From positions 1,798,001 through 1,862,000 of the forward strand of contig NZ_CP011504.1 in assembly GCF_001028665.1 (NCBI RefSeq): a DNA stretch of 64,000 nt, in the 5' to 3' direction. Under the pieces are notes generated by a model. It saw nothing but the letters and a program-made list of their open reading frames with translations. It was not told the origin of the DNA and did not search any database. This document shows, in pieces, positions 591-22,956 of this stretch; within the stretch, counting starts at the first letter, position 1; every line of letters starts with the position of its first letter. The translations under genes were made by a program, and so were the position numbers. This stretch comes from Burkholderia pyrrocinia. Lineage in GTDB: Bacteria; Pseudomonadota; Gammaproteobacteria; Burkholderiales; Burkholderiaceae.

Positions 591-1289
591 ATGGATGCAA
601 AAGTGTGCGCGGCGGCTACCGGTCTTGCGACTGCAACGACGCCAACGGGCGCGGCGACCATCGCCGCGCGCAAGACGTCCGGCCGGCCCGGCCGGGCTGC
701 TTCGCTGCGCCATGCGCTGATCGCAATCGTTTGCGTGTTGGGTGCGGCATCCGCGGTGCTCGTCGAGGATCCCGCCGATGCGGACGGCTCGCCCGACACC
801 ATGCGCATCGTCGCCACCGCGAGCCCCGCCGATCCCGCCGTTTCGTCACACGACTCCGCCGTGCGCCAGGTCGTGCTCGGCATCATCAGCTTCACGCGCT
901 GGCCGACGACGCCCGTTCGCCTGCATTTGTGCGTCACGGGCCGGCCCGACTACGCGCGCGGCCTGACCGACACGCTGCAGGCCGGCTCGACGCTGCTCGA
1001 CGTGCAGCGTGTCCGCTTCGACGATCCCTCGCTCGGCATGGCCTGCGACATCGTCTATATCGGCACCCTGAGCGACGTCGAGCGAACGCGGGTGAGAGCC
1101 GCGTTGGCCGGCCATCCGGTGCTGACCATCTCGGAACGCGATCCGTCCTGCACCGCAGGCAGCATGTTCTGTCTCAACGTCGACGGCGAACGCGTGTCGT
1201 TCGACATCAATCTCGACGCCGTGGCGCGCAGCGGCGTACGCGTGCATCCGAACGTGCTCAATCTCGCGCGACGGCCGGGGGCGCCATGA
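591..1289 (+). CDS. yfiR: YfiR-family periplasmic repressor of a diguanylate cyclase
   Basis: YfiR (DUF4154) proteins are periplasmic and hold the inner-membrane diguanylate cyclase YfiN inactive. Using ATG 591 gives 232 residues; a GTG at 525 in the same frame would add 22. A hydrophobic segment (LIAIVCVLGAASAVL) near residue 45 acts as signal or anchor. The YfiR core follows, with four cysteines (LCVTG, ACDI, PSC, MFC), as expected for the two disulfides of Pseudomonas YfiR, and a conserved ISERD stretch. The stop overlaps the yfiN start (ATGA), so the two genes are translationally coupled. The N-terminal extension before the signal is unusually long, so the true start is uncertain. Family call is firm from sequence plus context. 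Confidence 0.85.
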   Translation: MDAKVCAAATGLATATTPTGAATIAARKTSGRPGRAASLRHALIAIVCVLGAASAVLVEDPADADGSPDTMRIVATASPADPAVSSHDSAVRQVVLGIISFTRWPTTPVRLHLCVTGRPDYARGLTDTLQAGSTLLDVQRVRFDDPSLGMACDIVYIGTLSDVERTRVRAALAGHPVLTISERDPSCTAGSMFCLNVDGERVSFDINLDAVARSGVRVHPNVLNLARRPGAP

Positions 1290-2554
1290 GTCGGTTCGCG
1301 CCTCACTTTTCCCCCTCGCGGGTGTCGCGCCCGACGCTGCAAAGCGTGTTGCGCCGCGCGCACCTGCGCCTTGCGTTCGTCGCCGTCGCGATGGCCGCCG
1401 TGTCGTTGATCGTGGTCGCCGTGATCGCGTTGCGGGCCTATGCCGGCAACAACCTGAACCTGCTGGCGCGATCGCTCGGTTATACGGTCGAGGCGGCGCT
1501 CGTGTTCGGCGACCGCGTCGCGGCGAACGAGGCGATCGGGTTGATCGCCGGCGATGAGGACGTCGCGCAGGTGGTCGTCACGGACAGCAATGGCCAGCTG
1601 TTCGCGACGTGGCAGTTGCCTGCCGGCAGCCAGATCGCGCGGCTTGAGCGCGTCGTCGCCGACCTTGCGCTGCCCGGGCCCGTGACGGTTCCGGTGATGC
1701 ACGACGGCATCATCGTCGGCCACGTCGTCGTGCGCGGCCGCGGGCACCAGTTCTTCGGCTTCCTGCTCGGCGGCGTCGGCGGCATTCTCGGCGGCCTGGC
1801 CGTCAGCGTGTTCGGCGCGTATGTCAGCTCGAAGCGTCTGCTGCGCAACATCGTTTCGCCGCTGCGCGCGCTGGCCGGCGTGGCGCACGCCGTACGGCGC
1901 GACCGTGCGTTCGCGCGACGGGTCGCGCCCGTGCCGATCGCCGAACTGAACGAGCTCGGCGACGACTTCAATGCGTTGCTCGACGAATTCGAAGACTGGC
2001 AGAACACGCTGCGCGACGAGAACGCGTCGCTCGAACACAAGGCGACGCACGATGCGCTCACGGGCCTGCCCAACCGCGTGCAGTTCGAGTCGCGCCTTGC
2101 GCTTGCGCTCAGCGAAGCCAGGGCGACGGGCCAGCGGGTCGGCATCCTGTATCTGGACTGCGACCGCTTCAAGGAGATCAACGATTGCTTCGGCCACGAC
2201 GCCGGCGACGCGGTGCTGATCGACATCGCGGCGCGGCTGCGCGCGCAGGTGCGCGAGGCCGATCTGGTCGCCCGGCTGGGCGGCGACGAATTCGCGGTGA
2301 TGCTGTCGGCTGTGCGCGAAGCGGGCAGCGTATGTCGCATCGCCGACGAGATATTGTCCGGCATGGCGCCGTCGATCGAACTGTTCGACGGCCGCATGGT
2401 GGCCACCATGATGAGTGCCGGCGTTGCGCTGTATCCCGACCACGCGTCGGACGCGGGCGGCTTGCTGCGCGCGGCGGATGCGGCGATGTACCGGGCCAAG
2501 CGCACTCGGCCAGGCTCGTGGCAGTTGGCTGAAAGTGTCGCAGGACCGGTTTGA
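1286..2554 (+). CDS. yfiN: YfiN/TpbB-like membrane diguanylate cyclase
   Basis: This 422-residue protein makes cyclic di-GMP from two GTP. A transmembrane helix (about residues 30-55) leads into a periplasmic sensor domain beginning near GNNLNLLARS. A second membrane helix (GGVGGILGGLAVSVFGAY) and a HAMP-like linker follow, then the cyclase domain. GGDEF is intact at residues 332-336. A product-inhibition I-site (READ) lies five residues before it, so both catalysis and feedback inhibition should be possible. The start is ATG 1286, overlapping the yfiR stop. In the characterised YfiBNR system, YfiR binds the periplasmic domain and YfiB relieves that repression. The gene order here is the same (R, N, B). 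Confidence 0.9.
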   Translation: MSRFAPHFSPSRVSRPTLQSVLRRAHLRLAFVAVAMAAVSLIVVAVIALRAYAGNNLNLLARSLGYTVEAALVFGDRVAANEAIGLIAGDEDVAQVVVTDSNGQLFATWQLPAGSQIARLERVVADLALPGPVTVPVMHDGIIVGHVVVRGRGHQFFGFLLGGVGGILGGLAVSVFGAYVSSKRLLRNIVSPLRALAGVAHAVRRDRAFARRVAPVPIAELNELGDDFNALLDEFEDWQNTLRDENASLEHKATHDALTGLPNRVQFESRLALALSEARATGQRVGILYLDCDRFKEINDCFGHDAGDAVLIDIAARLRAQVREADLVARLGGDEFAVMLSAVREAGSVCRIADEILSGMAPSIELFDGRMVATMMSAGVALYPDHASDAGGLLRAADAAMYRAKRTRPGSWQLAESVAGPV

Positions 2555-2641
2555 TGCCGATCGCTTCGCGCTGCGGGCGAGGCCGCGGCAGCGGATCACA
2601 AAAAGCGCGCCCGACGCGGGCGCCCTCGAAGGGGATGTGAG

Positions 2642-3151
2642 ATGAACAACTCGTTTCCTGTGAGCACGGGGCGGATGTGCGTCACGAGCGCGCTGCTGCT
2701 GTGTTTGCTGCTGGGGGGCTGCAAGGCGCCGCCGCTTCATCGTGGGCTGACGCAGACGCAGGTCACGACGCTCAAGTCGGCCGGTTTCCACGAGACCGAG
2801 GAGGGTTTCGAGTTCGGCTCGACCGGACCGATCCTGTTCGATTTCGATCGATATAACCTCAAGCCCGATGTGCGGCGGATCGTCGAACGGATCGGGCGCA
2901 CGCTCAGGTCGGCGGGGATCAACGGGGTGCGGGTTTATGGGTACTCGGATCAGGAGGGGGCGGATGATTACGACTTCGAGTTGTCCAAGCGGCGTGCCGA
3001 GGTCGTGGCGATAGAACTCGTCGACGTCGGGCTGGATGGGAAGCGCATTGCGGTTGTCGGTAGAGGGAAGCGCGACCCGGTGGGCGACAACCGTACGCCG
3101 GCCGGCAGGATGCAGAATCGGAGGGCAGCGATTGTGGTTTCGCCGAGGTGA
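2642..3151 (+). CDS. yfiB: YfiB-like OmpA-family outer-membrane lipoprotein
   Basis: A 169-residue lipoprotein. The signal peptide ends in a lipobox (LLGGC), so the mature protein begins at that Cys and is probably sorted to the outer membrane. The C-terminal OmpA/Pal-like domain contains the YGYSDQEG strand and the NRTPAGRMQNRR segment that binds peptidoglycan. In the known system, envelope-anchored YfiB sequesters YfiR and so frees YfiN. It is 87 bases after yfiN and preceded by a GGGG-rich ribosome-binding site. It completes the yfiRNB operon. The alternative, a generic Pal-like lipoprotein, is unlikely given its position. Confidence 0.88.
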   Translation: MNNSFPVSTGRMCVTSALLLCLLLGGCKAPPLHRGLTQTQVTTLKSAGFHETEEGFEFGSTGPILFDFDRYNLKPDVRRIVERIGRTLRSAGINGVRVYGYSDQEGADDYDFELSKRRAEVVAIELVDVGLDGKRIAVVGRGKRDPVGDNRTPAGRMQNRRAAIVVSPR

Positions 3152-3235
3152 CGTTCCTGGCGGGATGGCAGCGTCCGGCGATGCGTATCGCGTATTGGTG
3201 TGCAGCGATTGGCCGCAATCGGAAGGAGACGAAAC

Positions 3236-3883
3236 ATGAGGTGGGCCACCGTCACGGAACTGAACAGCCTCATTCCGCTACCCGCCGGGTATGCGTTCTA
3301 GCAGTTGAGCCGCAGCCAGATTCCGGATCTCACGACGAAAGTCCGGCAATGGCACCCGGACATCGGGATTGGCGCCGGCAGTTGCTACGTCCGGGAACAG
3401 TTCTATCTCGACAAGACCTTCCTGGCGAATGAGGCTGAACGGGACGTCTACGTTCTGTTGATCAAGTTCGCCGACGAGATCGTCGGCATGTGGTCTTACG
3501 AGCGTGAACCCGATGCGCTGTCGATCTATGGGCGGCTATTGATCGTGGCGCCGGAGCACCGTGGCTCGAAGCTGGCCCTGAGCTGCATGTCCGGTACCGA
3601 ACGCATTTGTCGAACCTGCGGCGCCGAGTTCGTCTACACGATGGCGACGCTGAAAGTGCCGCACATGCAGGTCGCACTGGAACGCGCCGGCTATCTGCTG
3701 GTTGGTTTCGCGCCTGGCTACGACCGGGAGATCGGGAGCGATGGTGCCGTGAAGCGGATATTCGAGGCCGTCTATGGCAAGGTTCTCGTTGCTGACGAAG
3801 ACATGCTGCGCCCCGACCCGGCGAATCTCACACCGAAGGCGAAGGCGCTTTTCGACCTGATGTTTCCGATCGCCGCGCCATAG
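3236..3883 (+). pseudogene. GNAT-type N-acetyltransferase, interrupted by in-frame TAG
   Basis: Translation from ATG 3236, which has a strong ribosome-binding site (AAGGAG, 8 bases upstream), gives 21 residues and then hits TAG at 3299-3301. The same frame stays open without a shift to TAG 3881-3883. The downstream part reads as an acetyltransferase-like protein with an acetyl-CoA-binding-type segment (VAPEHRGSKLALSCM) and a C-terminal half typical of GNAT proteins. The leading 21 residues look like the natural N-terminus of the same family. A TTG at 3305 directly after the stop could restart translation (192 residues), but without a ribosome-binding site of its own. Either a recently inactivated gene, a sequencing error, or suppressed by readthrough. 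Confidence 0.7.
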
Positions 3884-4257
3884 GCAAGGGCGCTGCGTGT
3901 CGTAGGCGTATGAGCGTCTGCTCGGTACAAGCCGCGGACCTTCATGTTCTTGTCATGTGGACGGATCGTCGGCTGGAGCAGTCGTTGGCGACTGGAAGCT
4001 GCTCGATAAAGTCCGGATGGGGCTTTCATTTGCCCGAATAGAACGGTTCCGCCCGTTTTTTAACTCCCCATTGCCATTCCTTCCCCGCGGGCAAGCCTGC
4101 CCTGGCGCCCAGCCGCTGGTCTGGTTTTCCGAGTTTCAGGGCCCGAACGAAAACGTTTGCCGGTGTCTTTCGCATGGTCGGAATTTGTCCTACATTATCG
4201 GGGCTTCGGGCCGGCCAGACGGCCCACGGAACCTGAGATCACACGCAAGGAACAAGA
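3884..4257. other. Intergenic region upstream of the type VI cassette
   Basis: No gene is supported in these 374 bases. It is locally AT-richer (about 4050-4090 and 4170-4200), so the promoter of the vgrG-eag-rhs transcript most likely lies here. An AAGGAA ribosome-binding site sits just before vgrG. Confidence 0.4.
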
Positions 4258-6396
4258 ATGAGTTTCGCTCCGAACGGGGGTATTCCCAATGGTTTGGGCG
4301 GCGGCGCGCTCGGCTCCTTGAGCGCGCTCGGCGGCCTGGCAGGGCCGATCGCCTCGAGTGTTGCCGGGAGCCTCGGGCCGCTCGCGGGCCTGGCCGGGCA
4401 CGTCGACACCGTCCAGCGTGCGATGCAGCTCGCACAGACCGGCTTCTCGCTGATGGACAAGACGCCCGGCGCGGTTGCCGAAGCGATCAACGGCGCCGCC
4501 AACCCCGCGCGCCTGACCCAGCTCAATCGTTACGTCACGCTCGATACGCCGCTCGGCCCGGATGTGCTGCTGGTCAGCGCCGCCGTCGTCGACGAGTACG
4601 TGAACCGGTTGCCGGAAATCCACCTCGACCTGCTGTCGCATCGCCACGACCTGCGCCCCGACGACCTGATCGGCCAGCAGGTCAAGATTCGATTCGATCA
4701 GCAGGCGCGCCTGTCGACACTTGAACGCGTCGTTGCATCGGGTGCCGGCGAGAACGACCGTTATTTCGACGGCTACGTCGCGTCGTTCGACCGCGCCGGC
4801 AATCCCGGGAATGTCACGCAGTACCACCTGACGGCGGTGCCGTGGTTCTGGTTCCTGACGCGCTCGACCGACTGCCGGATTTTCCAGAACAAGACCGCGC
4901 AGGACATCCTCGCCGAGATTTTCCAGGAGCACGGATTCTCCGACTTCGTGTTCGACATCCGGACGAACCAGAAACCGCTCGAATACGTGGTGATGTACCA
5001 GGAGTCCTACTACAACTTCTGTGCGCGGTTGATGGAGCAGGAAGGGCTGGTCTGGACGCACCGCTACGAGAAGGACAAGCACATGCTTGTGATCGGCGAC
5101 ACGAATTTGCTGTTCCGCCCGATCGACGGGCTGGCAACCGTGCCGTTCGCCGCCACCGAGGCGAGCGAGGACAGCGGCATCGACCAGTTGCACGAAGGCC
5201 GGCGCTTTGGCGTCGGCAAGGTCACGTTCCGCGACTTCAATCACCAGAATCCGTCGTCGCCGCTGATGCTGGTGGAAGCCGGCCCGCAGAACCTCAAGCA
5301 CGCGCGGCTCGACTCGACCGAGCGGTTCGAGCACCAGTCGCTGTACGACCACGGCGACGACGGCAACCGTTATGCCCGTTTTGCGATGGAGGCCGAGGAG
5401 GCGCAGGCCCATCGCTATACCGGCGGCGGCTACGCATGGCGCATGACGACCGCCGGCGCCGTCAACGTGGCCAATCACCCGGTCCTCGAGAACAACCAGG
5501 AATACGTGATCCTGCACGTGCGTCACGAGGCGGTGAACGACTACACGCAGCACAGCGCAAAGCTGCCGTACCGCAACAGCTTCGCGTTGCTGCCGAAGAA
5601 GATTCCGTACCGCGCGCCGCGCGGCACGCCGAAACCGGTGATTCACGGCACGCAGTCGGCGATCGTCGTCGGTCCGAAGGGCGAGGAAATCTACACCAAC
5701 GGGAGCGCCGTGAAGGTGCATTTCCCGTGGGACCGGCGCGGCAAGAAGGATGGATCCGACTCGATGTGGGTGCGCGTGTCGCAGCCGTGGGCGGGCGATG
5801 GCTGGGGCGCGGCCGCGATTCCGCGGATCAAGCAGGAAGTGCTCGTGGCGTTCAATCAGGGCGATCCGGATAACCCGGTGATCGTGGGCCGCGTGTTCAA
5901 CGGCGAGCAAGGCAATCCGTACCACGGTGCGGCCGGCCAGACGATGGGGATCAAGAGCCAGACGCACAAGGGGCAGGGCTCGAACGAGATCCGCATGACC
6001 GACACGAACGGCATGCAGGAATTCTTCATGCACGCCCAGAAAGACATGAACACCGTGGTCGAGAACAGCGAGACGCACAAGGTGCTGGGGCCGATGCGTA
6101 CCGTCCTGGTGGCGACGGGCAGCGAAGAAAAGCAGATTCCGCAGGGCAACCTGACCGAGACGATCGCCGAGAAGCGGAGCACCACCGCGACCACGGTCGA
6201 GGTGACGACGCCTGCCAAGGATGGCGGCGGCGGCACGCAGGTCTACGTGGCCGAGCGCGGCATCCTGCTGAAGGTGCAGGACAGCTCGATCTCGCTCGCG
6301 CCCGAAGGCATTCGCCTCGAGCACAAGGGCTCCGTGATCCTGATGACCGACGACGGCGTGATGGTCAACGGCCAGCGCATCGATCTCAACAAATAA
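4258..6396 (+). CDS. vgrG: Type VI secretion system tip protein VgrG
   Basis: This 712-residue protein forms the trimeric spike at the tip of the type VI secretion tube. After a Gly/Ala/Leu-rich leader of about 80 residues comes the phage gp27-like base (from about TQLNRYVTLDTPLGPDVLL), then the gp5-like OB-fold and needle region (HFPWDRRGKKDGSDSMWVRV, with the VgrG-typical GWG and VGRVFNG segments). A DUF2345-type C-terminal extension with repetitive beta strands ends in LMTDDGVMVNGQRI. No extra enzymatic domain is evident, so this VgrG probably serves as carrier for the Rhs effector encoded two genes downstream. No structural T6SS genes (tss) are in the window, so it is an orphan vgrG locus. 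Confidence 0.95.
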   Translation: MSFAPNGGIPNGLGGGALGSLSALGGLAGPIASSVAGSLGPLAGLAGHVDTVQRAMQLAQTGFSLMDKTPGAVAEAINGAANPARLTQLNRYVTLDTPLGPDVLLVSAAVVDEYVNRLPEIHLDLLSHRHDLRPDDLIGQQVKIRFDQQARLSTLERVVASGAGENDRYFDGYVASFDRAGNPGNVTQYHLTAVPWFWFLTRSTDCRIFQNKTAQDILAEIFQEHGFSDFVFDIRTNQKPLEYVVMYQESYYNFCARLMEQEGLVWTHRYEKDKHMLVIGDTNLLFRPIDGLATVPFAATEASEDSGIDQLHEGRRFGVGKVTFRDFNHQNPSSPLMLVEAGPQNLKHARLDSTERFEHQSLYDHGDDGNRYARFAMEAEEAQAHRYTGGGYAWRMTTAGAVNVANHPVLENNQEYVILHVRHEAVNDYTQHSAKLPYRNSFALLPKKIPYRAPRGTPKPVIHGTQSAIVVGPKGEEIYTNGSAVKVHFPWDRRGKKDGSDSMWVRVSQPWAGDGWGAAAIPRIKQEVLVAFNQGDPDNPVIVGRVFNGEQGNPYHGAAGQTMGIKSQTHKGQGSNEIRMTDTNGMQEFFMHAQKDMNTVVENSETHKVLGPMRTVLVATGSEEKQIPQGNLTETIAEKRSTTATTVEVTTPAKDGGGGTQVYVAERGILLKVQDSSISLAPEGIRLEHKGSVILMTDDGVMVNGQRIDLNK

Positions 6397-20849: not shown

Positions 20850-20857
20850 TGAGGGAA

Positions 20858-20884
20858 GCCGCCGGCCTGCAATGGGCCGGCGGC
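20858..20884 (+). terminator. Hairpin after livF, probable transcription terminator
   Basis: GCCGCCGGCC at 20858-20867 and GGCCGGCGGC at 20875-20884 form a perfect 10-bp stem with a 7-base loop, nine bases after the livF stop. The downstream U-tract is weak (TCTTCTTCTTG further on), so efficiency is uncertain. Confidence 0.5.
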
Positions 20885-20947
20885 GCTGCTGATCTGATTG
20901 GCGTCTTCTTCTTGTGACGCTTTGGAACACAGGTTTGCAGGAAATGT

Positions 20948-21074
20948 GTAGCCGATCCAGCTTCGATCGTAGCCGAATCGGCTGCATTTAACTTGCCGAT
21001 CCGGACTGACAAGAGCATTCGTCGGGACGATATCTCGTAGCCAATTCGGCTACAATCGTAGCCAATCATGCTAC
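20948..21074 (+). promoter_or_regulatory. Four 17-bp palindromic operator-like sites before the MNT/HEPN pair
   Basis: Four related sites start with GTAGCC and tend toward GTAGCCRA-W-TCGGCTAC: 20948-20964 (degenerate right arm), 20969-20985, 21037-21053 (both near-perfect) and 21058-21074 (GTAGC...GCTAC, covering the start codon at 21068). The members of each pair start exactly 21 bases apart, two helical turns. Because the downstream protein has an N-terminal winged helix, autoregulation at these sites is the simplest reading. Confidence 0.7.
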
Positions 21075-21667
21075 GATCTATTGCCTCGACCCTATTTAGC
21101 GACTACCGGCGCCGTGTGCTGGGCCTGCTCCTGTTGCGGCCTGATCAGGCGTTACACGTTCGCGAAATTGCCCGTTTGACGGGCACAACCCCCGGTACCC
21201 TGCATAAGGAACTGAGCAAACTGGCCGAAGCCGGTATCTTGAGCCGGGATCGACAGGGAAATCAGGTTGTTTATCGCGCCAATCGAAGCTGTCCGATCTA
21301 TGAGGAGCTGGCTTCGATCATGCGAAAGACCTCGGGCATGGGTGACGTGCTGGCTGAAGCACTGCTGCCTTGCGCCGAGCAAATCGCCGTGGCGTTCGTG
21401 TTCGGCTCGGTCGCGCGCGGCCAGGAGACGGCGGACAGCGATGTCGACGTGATGGTGATCGGTTCGGTCGGGTTCGCTGCGGTGGTAGGAATGCTTTACG
21501 ATGCTCAAGCGACATTGGGGCGGGATATCAATCCCCAAGTACTGTCGCCCGACGAGTTTCGTGCCGGTGTCGACCGGCAAGACGCATTCTTGCGGGACGT
21601 GCTTGGAAAACCCAAGATCTTCTTGATCGGTAGCGACGATGACCTTGCAGAACTTACTCGGCGTTAG
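21068..21667 (+). CDS. Winged-helix protein with minimal nucleotidyltransferase domain (MNT-like)
   Basis: A 199-residue fusion. Residues about 10-85 form a winged helix-turn-helix (VREIARLTGTTPGTLHKELSK, then a wing at DRQGNQVVYRAN). The rest is a minimal nucleotidyltransferase with an exact GS-x10-D-x-D motif (GSVARGQETADSDVD) and a likely third acidic residue (GRDINPQV). MNT proteins act as antitoxins that nucleotidylate a HEPN partner in MntA/HepT-type modules. Here the next gene overlaps by 29 bases and is HEPN-like. The winged helix and the operator array suggest a sensor-repressor antitoxin. Start ATG 21068 lies inside the fourth operator site, so binding there would block initiation. 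Confidence 0.85.
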   Translation: MLRSIASTLFSDYRRRVLGLLLLRPDQALHVREIARLTGTTPGTLHKELSKLAEAGILSRDRQGNQVVYRANRSCPIYEELASIMRKTSGMGDVLAEALLPCAEQIAVAFVFGSVARGQETADSDVDVMVIGSVGFAAVVGMLYDAQATLGRDINPQVLSPDEFRAGVDRQDAFLRDVLGKPKIFLIGSDDDLAELTRR

Positions 21668-22085
21668 CCTCGACGCGGTCCAGCCGGACCGGGAACAAGC
21701 GACGCGGCTGCTGGCTGCTGCTGCGCGAAATCTGGCGGATGCGCAACTCGAGGGATTGAGCAACGAAAACCGCTTTGACGCGGCCTATAAGGCGATCATG
21801 CAACTTGCGATGCTGGCGTTGCACGCGAATGGCTTTCGCACGATGACGAGCCGCCCGGGACATCACCAGACAGCGATCCAGACGCTTCCGCAGACGATCG
21901 GCCTGCCGGTCGATCGCATGATCGTGCTCGACGCGCTGCGCAAGCAGCGCAATCTGTCGGATTACTCCGGGGACGTGGTTCAAGCGTCCGCGGTAAATGA
22001 GTGTTTTGCCAGTGCGACGGCGCTCATGATCGACGTGAAGACGTGGTTGACGACGAACAAACGCGAGTTGCTGGAAGCGCAATAG
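21639..22085 (+). CDS. HEPN-like partner of the nucleotidyltransferase
   Basis: A 148-residue helical protein overlapping the preceding gene by 29 bases in another frame, so the two are translationally coupled. Helix patterns ANLADAQLEGL-like (RNLADAQLEGLSNENRFDAA) and YKAIMQLAMLALHANGFR are typical of HEPN-domain proteins paired with nucleotidyltransferases. The region where HepT toxins carry R-x4-H-x-Y reads RKQRNLSDYSG here, without the His, so it may be non-cleaving or use a variant site. Role inferred from pairing: toxin or target of the neighbouring enzyme. Confidence 0.75.
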   Translation: MTLQNLLGVSLDAVQPDREQATRLLAAAARNLADAQLEGLSNENRFDAAYKAIMQLAMLALHANGFRTMTSRPGHHQTAIQTLPQTIGLPVDRMIVLDALRKQRNLSDYSGDVVQASAVNECFASATALMIDVKTWLTTNKRELLEAQ

Positions 22086-22170
22086 CTACGGCGGTTCTGA
22101 AGCGCCATCGTGCCTGGGTTTCGACTGCGACCTCGGGCAATTCTCGTGACACGACTCGCGGAGACAACCG

Positions 22171-22521
22171 ATGAAGGTCAAACGAATCGTCGCCAATATC
22201 GACACGCAGTCGGTCGATGACGCGAAGCGTTTCTATCAGCAGATCTTCGGTCTCGACCTGCTGATGGATCACGGCTGGATCGCGACGTACGGCAATGCCG
22301 AACAGATGGATGTGCAGATCAGCTTCGCATCGCAAGGCGGATCGGGCACGCCGACGCCCGGCCTGTCGATCGAGGTCGACGATCTCGACGAAGCGCTCTC
22401 GCGTGTTCGTTCAGCGGGCATTCCCGTCGAATACGGCCCGGCCGACGAGCCGTGGGGTGTCAGGCGTTTCTATGTACGCGATCCGTTCGGCAAGCTCGTC
22501 AACGTGCTGGCGCATCGCTGA
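22171..22521 (+). CDS. VOC (glyoxalase/bleomycin-resistance) family protein
   Basis: A 116-residue single VOC-fold protein. The N-terminal half has DAKRFYQQIFGLDLLMDHGW, and the C-terminal half LSIEVDDLDEALSRVRSAGI followed by PWGVRRFYVRDPFGKLVNVL, the typical closing strand. The fold usually works as a dimer binding a metal or small molecule. The substrate cannot be predicted. Start ATG 22171 is preceded by a GGAG site. A decayed second copy of its 3' end lies at 23936-24048, on the other side of the DUF2000/AraC pair. Confidence 0.88.
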   Translation: MKVKRIVANIDTQSVDDAKRFYQQIFGLDLLMDHGWIATYGNAEQMDVQISFASQGGSGTPTPGLSIEVDDLDEALSRVRSAGIPVEYGPADEPWGVRRFYVRDPFGKLVNVLAHR

Positions 22522-22548: not shown

Positions 22549-22956
22549 TCACGCATGCAACGCCAGCCCTTTCACTGCCTTGTCCACGGCCTTCTTCGGT
22601 CCGTGCAACGCCAGCCCGACCAGATCCAGATTCTCCGCATCCTCGGCGCGAAACACCTCGCGGTTGGCCGCGTCGTGCCCGGTCGAAAACATCGCGCGCA
22701 CGTAGGGCACGATCGTGAGTTCGCGCGACAGCGCCTGCCGGTGCGCGCCCTGCAATCCATTCAAATCGGCCGCGAACACCAGCATCGGCTGGCCGAACAT
22801 CCTGCCGTAGCGATTGCCGGCCGCATCCTCATAAGGCTCGCCGAGCGCTTGGGGCGCGCCCGCTGCGACGCCCGTCGCGAGAAACGCGACGACATTGAGT
22901 TTCTGCCACGCCGCGAGATCGTCGCGCACGATCAGTGCCACTTTCGTATCGAACAT
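22549..22956 (-). CDS. DUF2000 family protein
   Basis: A 135-residue protein beginning MFDTKVALIVRDDLAAWQKLNVVAFLATG, characteristic of DUF2000 (read here in short pieces), with FGQPMLVFAAD and the final GLALHGPKKAVDKAVKGL. Start ATG 22956 has a strong AGGAG site. It is the downstream gene of a two-gene minus-strand unit with the AraC regulator (44-base gap). DUF2000 proteins have a peptidyl-tRNA-hydrolase-like fold but no established activity. Confidence 0.85.
   Translation of the reverse strand: MFDTKVALIVRDDLAAWQKLNVVAFLATGVAAGAPQALGEPYEDAAGNRYGRMFGQPMLVFAADLNGLQGAHRQALSRELTIVPYVRAMFSTGHDAANREVFRAEDAENLDLVGLALHGPKKAVDKAVKGLALHA

Follow-up and report, generated by a model that had tools for sequence, protein, structure and literature searches.

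The question raised by this locus of Burkholderia pyrrocinia is whether a nucleotidyltransferase (NTase) that carries its own winged helix (wHTH) represses, through the dyads that precede its gene, the operon that it shares with a HEPN-like partner. The window, that is, the whole stretch of 64,000 nucleotides that was analysed, encodes two proteins that strongly match the M05A and M05B models of PDC-M05, a phage-defence candidate for which the PADLOC database describes neither operator nor mechanism. The module is therefore PDC-M05 and is not private to Burkholderia. Its features are located in Table 1.

Table 1. Features of the PDC-M05 locus, in positions of the window.
Feature	Position	Strand	Remark
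Distal pair, dyad 1	20948-20964	.	GTAGCCGATCCAGCTTC
Distal pair, dyad 2	20969-20985	.	GTAGCCGAATCGGCTGC; offset 21 from dyad 1
Proximal pair, dyad 3	21037-21053	.	GTAGCCAATTCGGCTAC; perfect arms
-10 element TACAAT (probable)	21051-21056	+	At the end of dyad 3; fits the first register (+6)
Proximal pair, dyad 4	21058-21074	.	GTAGCCAATCATGCTAC; offset 21 from dyad 3
M05A, wHTH-NTase, 199 aa	21068-21667	+	PADLOC PDC-M05A (PDLC04368), E=1.3e-82
Putative recognition helix codons, residues 38-52	21179-21223	+	Placed by HTH sequence; highest operator covariation
GS-x10-D-x-D catalytic motif, residues 113-127	21404-21448	+	Invariant in 73 A2 sequences
M05B, HEPN-like, 148 aa	21639-22085	+	PADLOC PDC-M05B (PDLC04379), E=4.7e-72
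RN-L-S-D-Y motif, residues 104-109	21948-21965	+	Occupies the place of Rx4-6H

Paired dyads before a winged-helix nucleotidyltransferase

M05A joins an N-terminal winged helix and an NTase in one chain, as a preliminary description of this DNA had proposed. The winged helix is ArsR/MarR-like and the NTase of the Pol-beta type, and the Pfam models HTH_20, Polbeta and NTP_transf_2 score above cut-off in M05A. The catalytic motif named there is present as G113-S114-x10-D125-x-D127, and each of its positions is kept in 95-97 of 99 rows, gaps in truncated rows being scored as misses. In the hand-cut alignment A2, which holds 73 of the 92 M05A reference proteins, all 73 members match the PDC-M05A model. 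The NCBIfam model of the MntA antitoxin, NF047752, gives M05A 27.5 bits, below its cut-off of 60. Among solved structures, the M05A profile matches 8xeh and 8xeo best, and also 2rff and chain E of 9xbd, which ranks below the other three; the structural assignments made here come from sequence profiles of this kind.

The four 17-bp dyads lie in two pairs at the positions that had been claimed for them, and the offset within both pairs is 21 bp. The arms GTAGCC/GGCTAC, ascribed to the whole array, are perfect in dyad 3 and imperfect in the other three dyads. The last dyad does cover the start codon, since 21068 is the first start codon of the NTase frame. The right arm of dyad 4 is formed by the first M05A codons (ATG CTA C), and ATGCTAC is found in 12/12 close orthologues, so that operator and N-terminus constrain one another.

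Matches to the 17-bp dyad with up to 3 mismatches number nine in the 64-kb window, against a shuffle mean of 1.84, and 0 of 100 shuffles reach nine; eight of the nine are the four dyads, each read on both strands. When twin dyads are scored at offset 21, the proximal pair (21037) is the top of the window with 16.5, and the distal pair (20948) obtains 14.0, a value equalled at 22853, 37440 and 53710, so that the distal pair alone would not be conspicuous. A scan of the genome itself for one dyad plus the next half-site, allowing up to 2 mismatches, returned the M05 promoter and one more place, C1:2420753; at 3 mismatches, ten further places appear elsewhere in that genome. The paired operator is nearly restricted to the M05 promoter within its own genome, and a wider regulon was rejected on the scan at up to 2 mismatches.

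Operator spacing and operator letters among relatives

Twelve Burkholderia loci form the close orthologue set (at least 85% identity, the window's own copy counted in), and in 11 of them both pairs are present upstream of the orthologous genes, each at the 21-bp offset. Counted from codon 10, the start of the distal pair varies from -139 to -150, its internal offset being 21 in all 11, and in the twelfth orthologue (L031, at the same place as L014) the proximal pair was found and the distal pair was not. The distance between distal and proximal pair ranges among the orthologues from 81 to 92 bp, so helical phase is not fixed, and looping between the pairs at a fixed phase was rejected because these distances keep no phase. 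The constraint would act within a pair, as expected of two dimers touching on one DNA face. Two pairs occur at further loci, namely L101 and L144 (near -63 and at -167), and a locus of the ATCC class (L110) has four dyads at -104, -83, -56 and -35.

To follow the geometry beyond the close orthologues, loci without a tblastn match (L026, L053) were dropped and identical ones merged (143 to 137); removal of L102, L104 and L052 left 134, of which 99 are non-redundant, with upstream windows less than 70% identical to each other. All twin-dyad offsets from 12 to 40 bp were scanned. Offset 21 ranks best in 59 of 99 promoter windows; among control windows it does so in 3 of 97 placed near -500 and in 7 of 99 taken from within the gene. 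The loci behind these counts share phylogeny and are not independent of each other. Over the 99 non-redundant loci, the mean score of offset 21 exceeds that of the other offsets by 19.7 sd. Windows of double width give a similar picture (60/98 against 5/96 and 2/99 in the controls), and an earlier version of the score had placed 21 first in 56/99 promoters and in 20/495 dinucleotide shuffles. In the narrow window, 40 loci have another best offset; 11 of them give 21 in the wide window, of which 10 were accepted, the remaining one (L091, with a pair at -219) being judged spurious; about 30 of the 99 have no clear 21-bp pair. A search for homologues with conserved upstream dyads had been suggested, and the spacing is kept in distant relatives.

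Offset 21 is also the top one in loci from metagenome-assembled genomes assigned to Deltaproteobacteria (L045), to Calditrichaeota (L046) and to an unplaced bacterium (L043), the pair of L045 being not clean and omitted from later steps, and it is likewise best in a Planctomycetales locus (L044). A plasmid copy from Legionella fits a 21-bp pair, with 4/100 shuffles equally good, and one from Cupriavidus fits weakly (24/100); for the Rhodococcus and faecal-phage homologues, the pair is not above chance in the same shuffle test. The possibility that the dyads are chance or low-complexity palindromes, which the three other places in the window matching the distal pair's score might suggest, is opposed by the window count that no shuffle reaches and by the 21-bp rule of the whole family; it was rejected at the family level on shuffles and control windows, and its probability is close to nil.

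While the spacing is kept, the letters of the dyads differ by clade (GTAGC, GAAGC, TACCC, GTTCAT, ATCCC/T, GTGCTA, TCTC). They were compared with the protein in loci taken from the 56 at offset 21, of which 49 were left after removal of half-integer centres, L045 and L121, and 47 after that of L096 and L151, both partly truncated and still inside the 49-locus correlation. With NTase divergence controlled, operator distance correlates best among 10-residue protein windows with residues 38-47 (partial r 0.49, 49 loci), and residues 38-51 give a partial r of 0.41 that 0 of 2000 permutations reach (49 loci). Residues 10-19 of the wHTH are almost as strong (r 0.44, 49 loci), and, among every fifth window along the protein, those in the NTase are near zero except for two at 0.18 and one at 0.10. 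Helix 38-52 keeps an r of 0.30 (0/1000 permutations) once the remaining wHTH and the NTase are both controlled; the remaining wHTH retains 0.25 of its own (0/1000), and the NTase domain adds nothing (-0.02, all in 47 loci). The dyad sequence thus tracks the winged helix, and most of all its putative recognition helix, rather than the catalytic domain; in view of residues 10-19 and of the rest of the wHTH, the covariation is not confined to the helix.

Several copies may coexist in one genome. A hand-made list of 14 multi-copy genomes contains 4 in which a copy lacks a readable pair; among the 10 left, 7 have copies of different operator classes. In one genome (G311), two M05 copies with equal scores and the same operators (L061 and L112) lie about 6.4 kb from each other, probably a recent duplication.

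Promoter-like letters were read in 49 loci after alignment on the first dyad. Hexamers that share at least 4/6 letters with TATAAT start at +6 from its centre in 15 loci and at +9 in another 10, while TTGACA-like hexamers start at -17 in 7 and at -14 in 14; with either -10 register, the spacer to the -35-like positions seen most often measures 17 bp. In 18 of the 49, the best -10-like match is at -5 to -2, inside the first dyad and off both registers. A -10-like element often lies between the dyads, in about half of the aligned loci. In B. pyrrocinia, the -35 partner of TACAAT is weak, and a strict sigma-70 consensus scan of 20850-22200 found no promoter. Transcription would be expected to start about 5 nt before the ATG at 21068, and the mRNA would then be nearly leaderless.

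It could be argued that the dyads are sites of another host regulator, or RNA hairpins, instead of sites of M05A. Dyad 2 scores as terminator-like, one of 2 such sites in the stretch, which is no more than in shuffles (mean 1.3), and dyad 3 would not be transcribed as a hairpin, since it is upstream of the expected start. The constancy of the spacing while the letters change with the M05A wHTH, and the near restriction of the paired site to the M05 promoter in its own genome, argue against another regulator, and we consider this explanation very improbable. Self-repression by M05A, which the preliminary description had put forward, is supported by the spacing kept at great distance, by dyads that track the wHTH and by a site nearly restricted to its own promoter. 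Judging from these sequence patterns, the wHTH-NTase is very probably an autorepressor whose dimers sit on one DNA face.

The HEPN-like partner and the setting of the module

M05A and M05B overlap by the 29 bases that had been counted (21639-21667). Of 137 loci, 124 have a B-like frame after A and 106 still do if a start codon is required; 98 of the 106 frames begin before A ends when the longest frame is taken. The M05B family profile matches the HEPN chains 9xbd, 9xbc and 2hsb, 9xbd being the solved entry that both the NTase and the HEPN profiles match; a literature search for the codes 9xbd and 9xbc found no relevant paper. The two HEPN chains of 9xbc/9xbd differ at the conserved Tyr (RNRSDY vs RNRSDF), which looks like a test of that residue by the depositors. 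A plasmid of Legionella hackeliae (L152, 1489-3296) has a third gene that overlaps M05B and is annotated as a member of the aminoglycoside adenylyltransferase family, the three genes apparently forming one operon.

Within M05B, R104 and N105 are kept in 96% and Y109 in 94% of 107 rows, which comprise 105 distinct sequences and were not otherwise thinned. Among the 103 rows having R104, which are all the testable ones, RN-x2-[DE]-Y is found in 84 and Rx4-6H in none. The hand-cut alignment A1 contains 72 of 76 M05B reference proteins, 69 of which match the commonest PDC-M05B model; the Pfam family PF05168 is matched at E<=0.01 by just 6 of the 72, and not by M05B of the window.

These features bear on the role of the pair. 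The locus had been seen as a self-repressing variant of a toxin/antitoxin (TA) or phage-sensing module. The fusion of wHTH and MNT and the HEPN partner are confirmed, whereas the word toxin finds no support in the motif; M05B as a classical RNase HEPN was rejected on this ground. A classical type VII TA, with M05B as RNase toxin, M05A as AMPylating antitoxin and a wHTH that merely adds autoregulation, would account for the HepT/MntA-like gene order, the overlap, the GSx10DxD motif and the conserved HEPN Tyr (PMC7641770). However, Rx4-6H is missing from M05B, and class II HEPNs lack the RNase motif according to the account in PMC7641770, so that M05B is likened to class II HEPN/MNT rather than to the RNase toxin HepT. 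The missing motif is not proof against RNase activity, since a Legionella HEPN is described as cutting RNA through another, metal-binding site (PMC11586414), and the type VII reading is retained as unlikely but deserving serious attention.

The NTase could instead be the effector, as in AbiE and MenT, with M05B as a subunit that binds the substrate or restrains the NTase and a wHTH that keeps the enzyme scarce. The catalytic motif kept in A and the HEPN motif missing in B fit such an arrangement, PMC2701414 saw the possible toxin in MNT and suggested that HEPN might bind the substrate, and NTase toxins are reported in PMC7319586 and PMC10435456. On the other hand, HEPN is given as the toxin in tested class I pairs (PMC7641770, PMC4621449), and an effector NTase seems rather doubtful.

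At E<=1e-3, 3676 homologous proteins were collected, the wHTH being checked in part of them. In the genus Burkholderia, 20 of 65 genomes have a relative at that threshold and 12 of these an orthologue of at least 85% identity, and relatives at E<=1e-20 were found in 54 of 369 genomes of the class, 38 of 299 of the family and 14 of 398 of the phylum, samples that overlap. The E. coli genomes gave no match to the M05 locus. A single-protein scan of viral contigs confirmed no relative, with 4 stretches matching a pattern, and phage and plasmid records yielded 1 weak match among 50,697 and 19 matches among 72,556, respectively; carriage by phages or plasmids was rejected as rare at the sensitivity of these scans.

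In the window, the M05 pair has an ABC gene of livF type on one side and a VOC-type gene on the other (names given by eye). None of the 12 orthologues is more than 5.2 kb away from its genome's best livF match, but the gene order varies among them (the VOC gene comes first in G008), and in seven genomes without an orthologue (G013, G020, G024, G032, G036, G063, G064) the gap between livF and VOC is 76-195 bp. M05 is therefore a presence/absence cassette at a variable site. In other genomes without an orthologue, some kilobases separate livF from the VOC gene, and a VOC match at E<=1e-20 is absent in 31 of 65 genomes of the genus. One such site without M05 (L224 in G018, 750-4850) is occupied by about 4 kb of other genes, named by eye as a LysR regulator, a methyltransferase, a dioxygenase and an EamA-type transporter. 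Partial second 3' ends of livF are present beside the cassette at two loci, one of 243 bp (L227 in G033, 2556-2798) and one of 115 bp (L226 in G034, 5603-5717), the latter with two VOC genes. Recombination at the livF 3' end is suggested as the way in which the cassette moved.

A proposed twin-operator model and its comparison with known systems

The proposed model, to which we assign a probability of about 0.7 as a whole, is that of a self-repressing NTase M05A with its HEPN partner M05B, a twin-operator clamp and a nucleotidylation switch. It draws on the dyads, their spacing, the covariation with the wHTH, the -10-like element, the gene pair and the catalytic motif, all read from sequence, and from these we infer dimers, binding, repression, nucleotidylation and an inducing signal. 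Winged-helix dimers of M05A would bind the 17-bp dyads, and two dimers placed 21 bp, or two helix turns, apart on the same DNA face would clamp the -10 region. The larger part of the -35/-10 spacer would lie under dyad 3, as would half of the -10 element, and dyad 4 would overlie both start site and ATG, which would exclude RNA polymerase; the distal pair may serve as an auxiliary site with the same arrangement about 90 bp upstream. The gene overlap would couple M05B to M05A, which probably binds and nucleotidylates its partner, likely on Tyr109 by analogy with MntA/HepT. The free, bound or modified state would then set the occupancy of M05A on DNA, and the operon would be released by stress or infection. 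AMPylation, toxicity and phage sensing are likewise putative properties of the module.

A bolder proposal, advanced only tentatively, is that PDC-M05 is not a TA at all but a nucleotidyl-transfer switch, in which the promoter is the place where the NTase reads out its own activity, the HEPN protein is the modified sensor, and operator sequence and recognition helix drift together. If this were true, a HEPN free of the RNase motif would load and unload M05A on a fixed twin-operator geometry, and the drift of the operator would allow several copies per cell without cross-talk.

Under the twin-operator model, a nucleotide-transfer enzyme and promoter control are linked in one chain, which suggests how such a module could remain silent until stress or infection. 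The fixed geometry and the clade-specific letters predict the DNA bound by each M05A and permit swap tests, in a widespread group (class II HEPN/MNT and PDC-M05). A phage link is hinted at by transcription in B. cenocepacia K56-2, where the PDC operon is reported to change as a whole under phage Bcep176, with PDC-M05A up (PMC12584637), in a strain other than that of the window and perhaps in a copy of another clade.

PDC-M05 resembles the HepT/MntA type VII TA in its two-gene order, its GSx10DxD NTase and a HEPN partner with a conserved Tyr, and differs from it in the RX4HXY motif of HepT, which the M05B rows lack. Classical MntA had been said to carry no DNA-binding domain, and none is predicted in it, yet MntA of Shewanella (SO_3165) is reported to bind and repress its own promoter, where two dissimilar palindromes lie (PMC4621449), so that self-repression itself is not new. 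The class II HEPN/MNT pairs (PF05168/PF01909) are similar in their HEPN without RX4H, their conserved Tyr and their GSx10DxD NTase, and no biochemistry of the class II module was known to the authors who describe it (PMC7641770). The passages on class II there mention no fused wHTH, whereas M05A has one, and class II HEPNs belong to PF05168, which few M05B members match.

A winged helix is also carried by AbiEi. As proposed for M05A, this antitoxin of the AbiEi/AbiEii type IV TA (and likewise Rv2827c) is described as a repressor of the operon to which it belongs, acting on two or four tandem repeats (PMC7319586). AbiE divides wHTH and NTase between two proteins, whereas M05A holds both domains in one chain; the AbiE repeats are given as 23 bp long with gaps of 3 or 13 bp, in contrast to the 17-bp dyads offset by 21 bp of M05. 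The AbiEi model matches M05A with E=0.052, and separate AbiEi and AbiEii proteins are not found here. In a body of literature with few subscription papers and no preprints, no paper was found that, judged by title and abstract beginning, deals with PDC-M05 operators or with a twin operator of a wHTH-MNT protein. Self-repression being known from MntA, what is new is a dedicated wHTH on an MNT protein, combined with regular twin operators.
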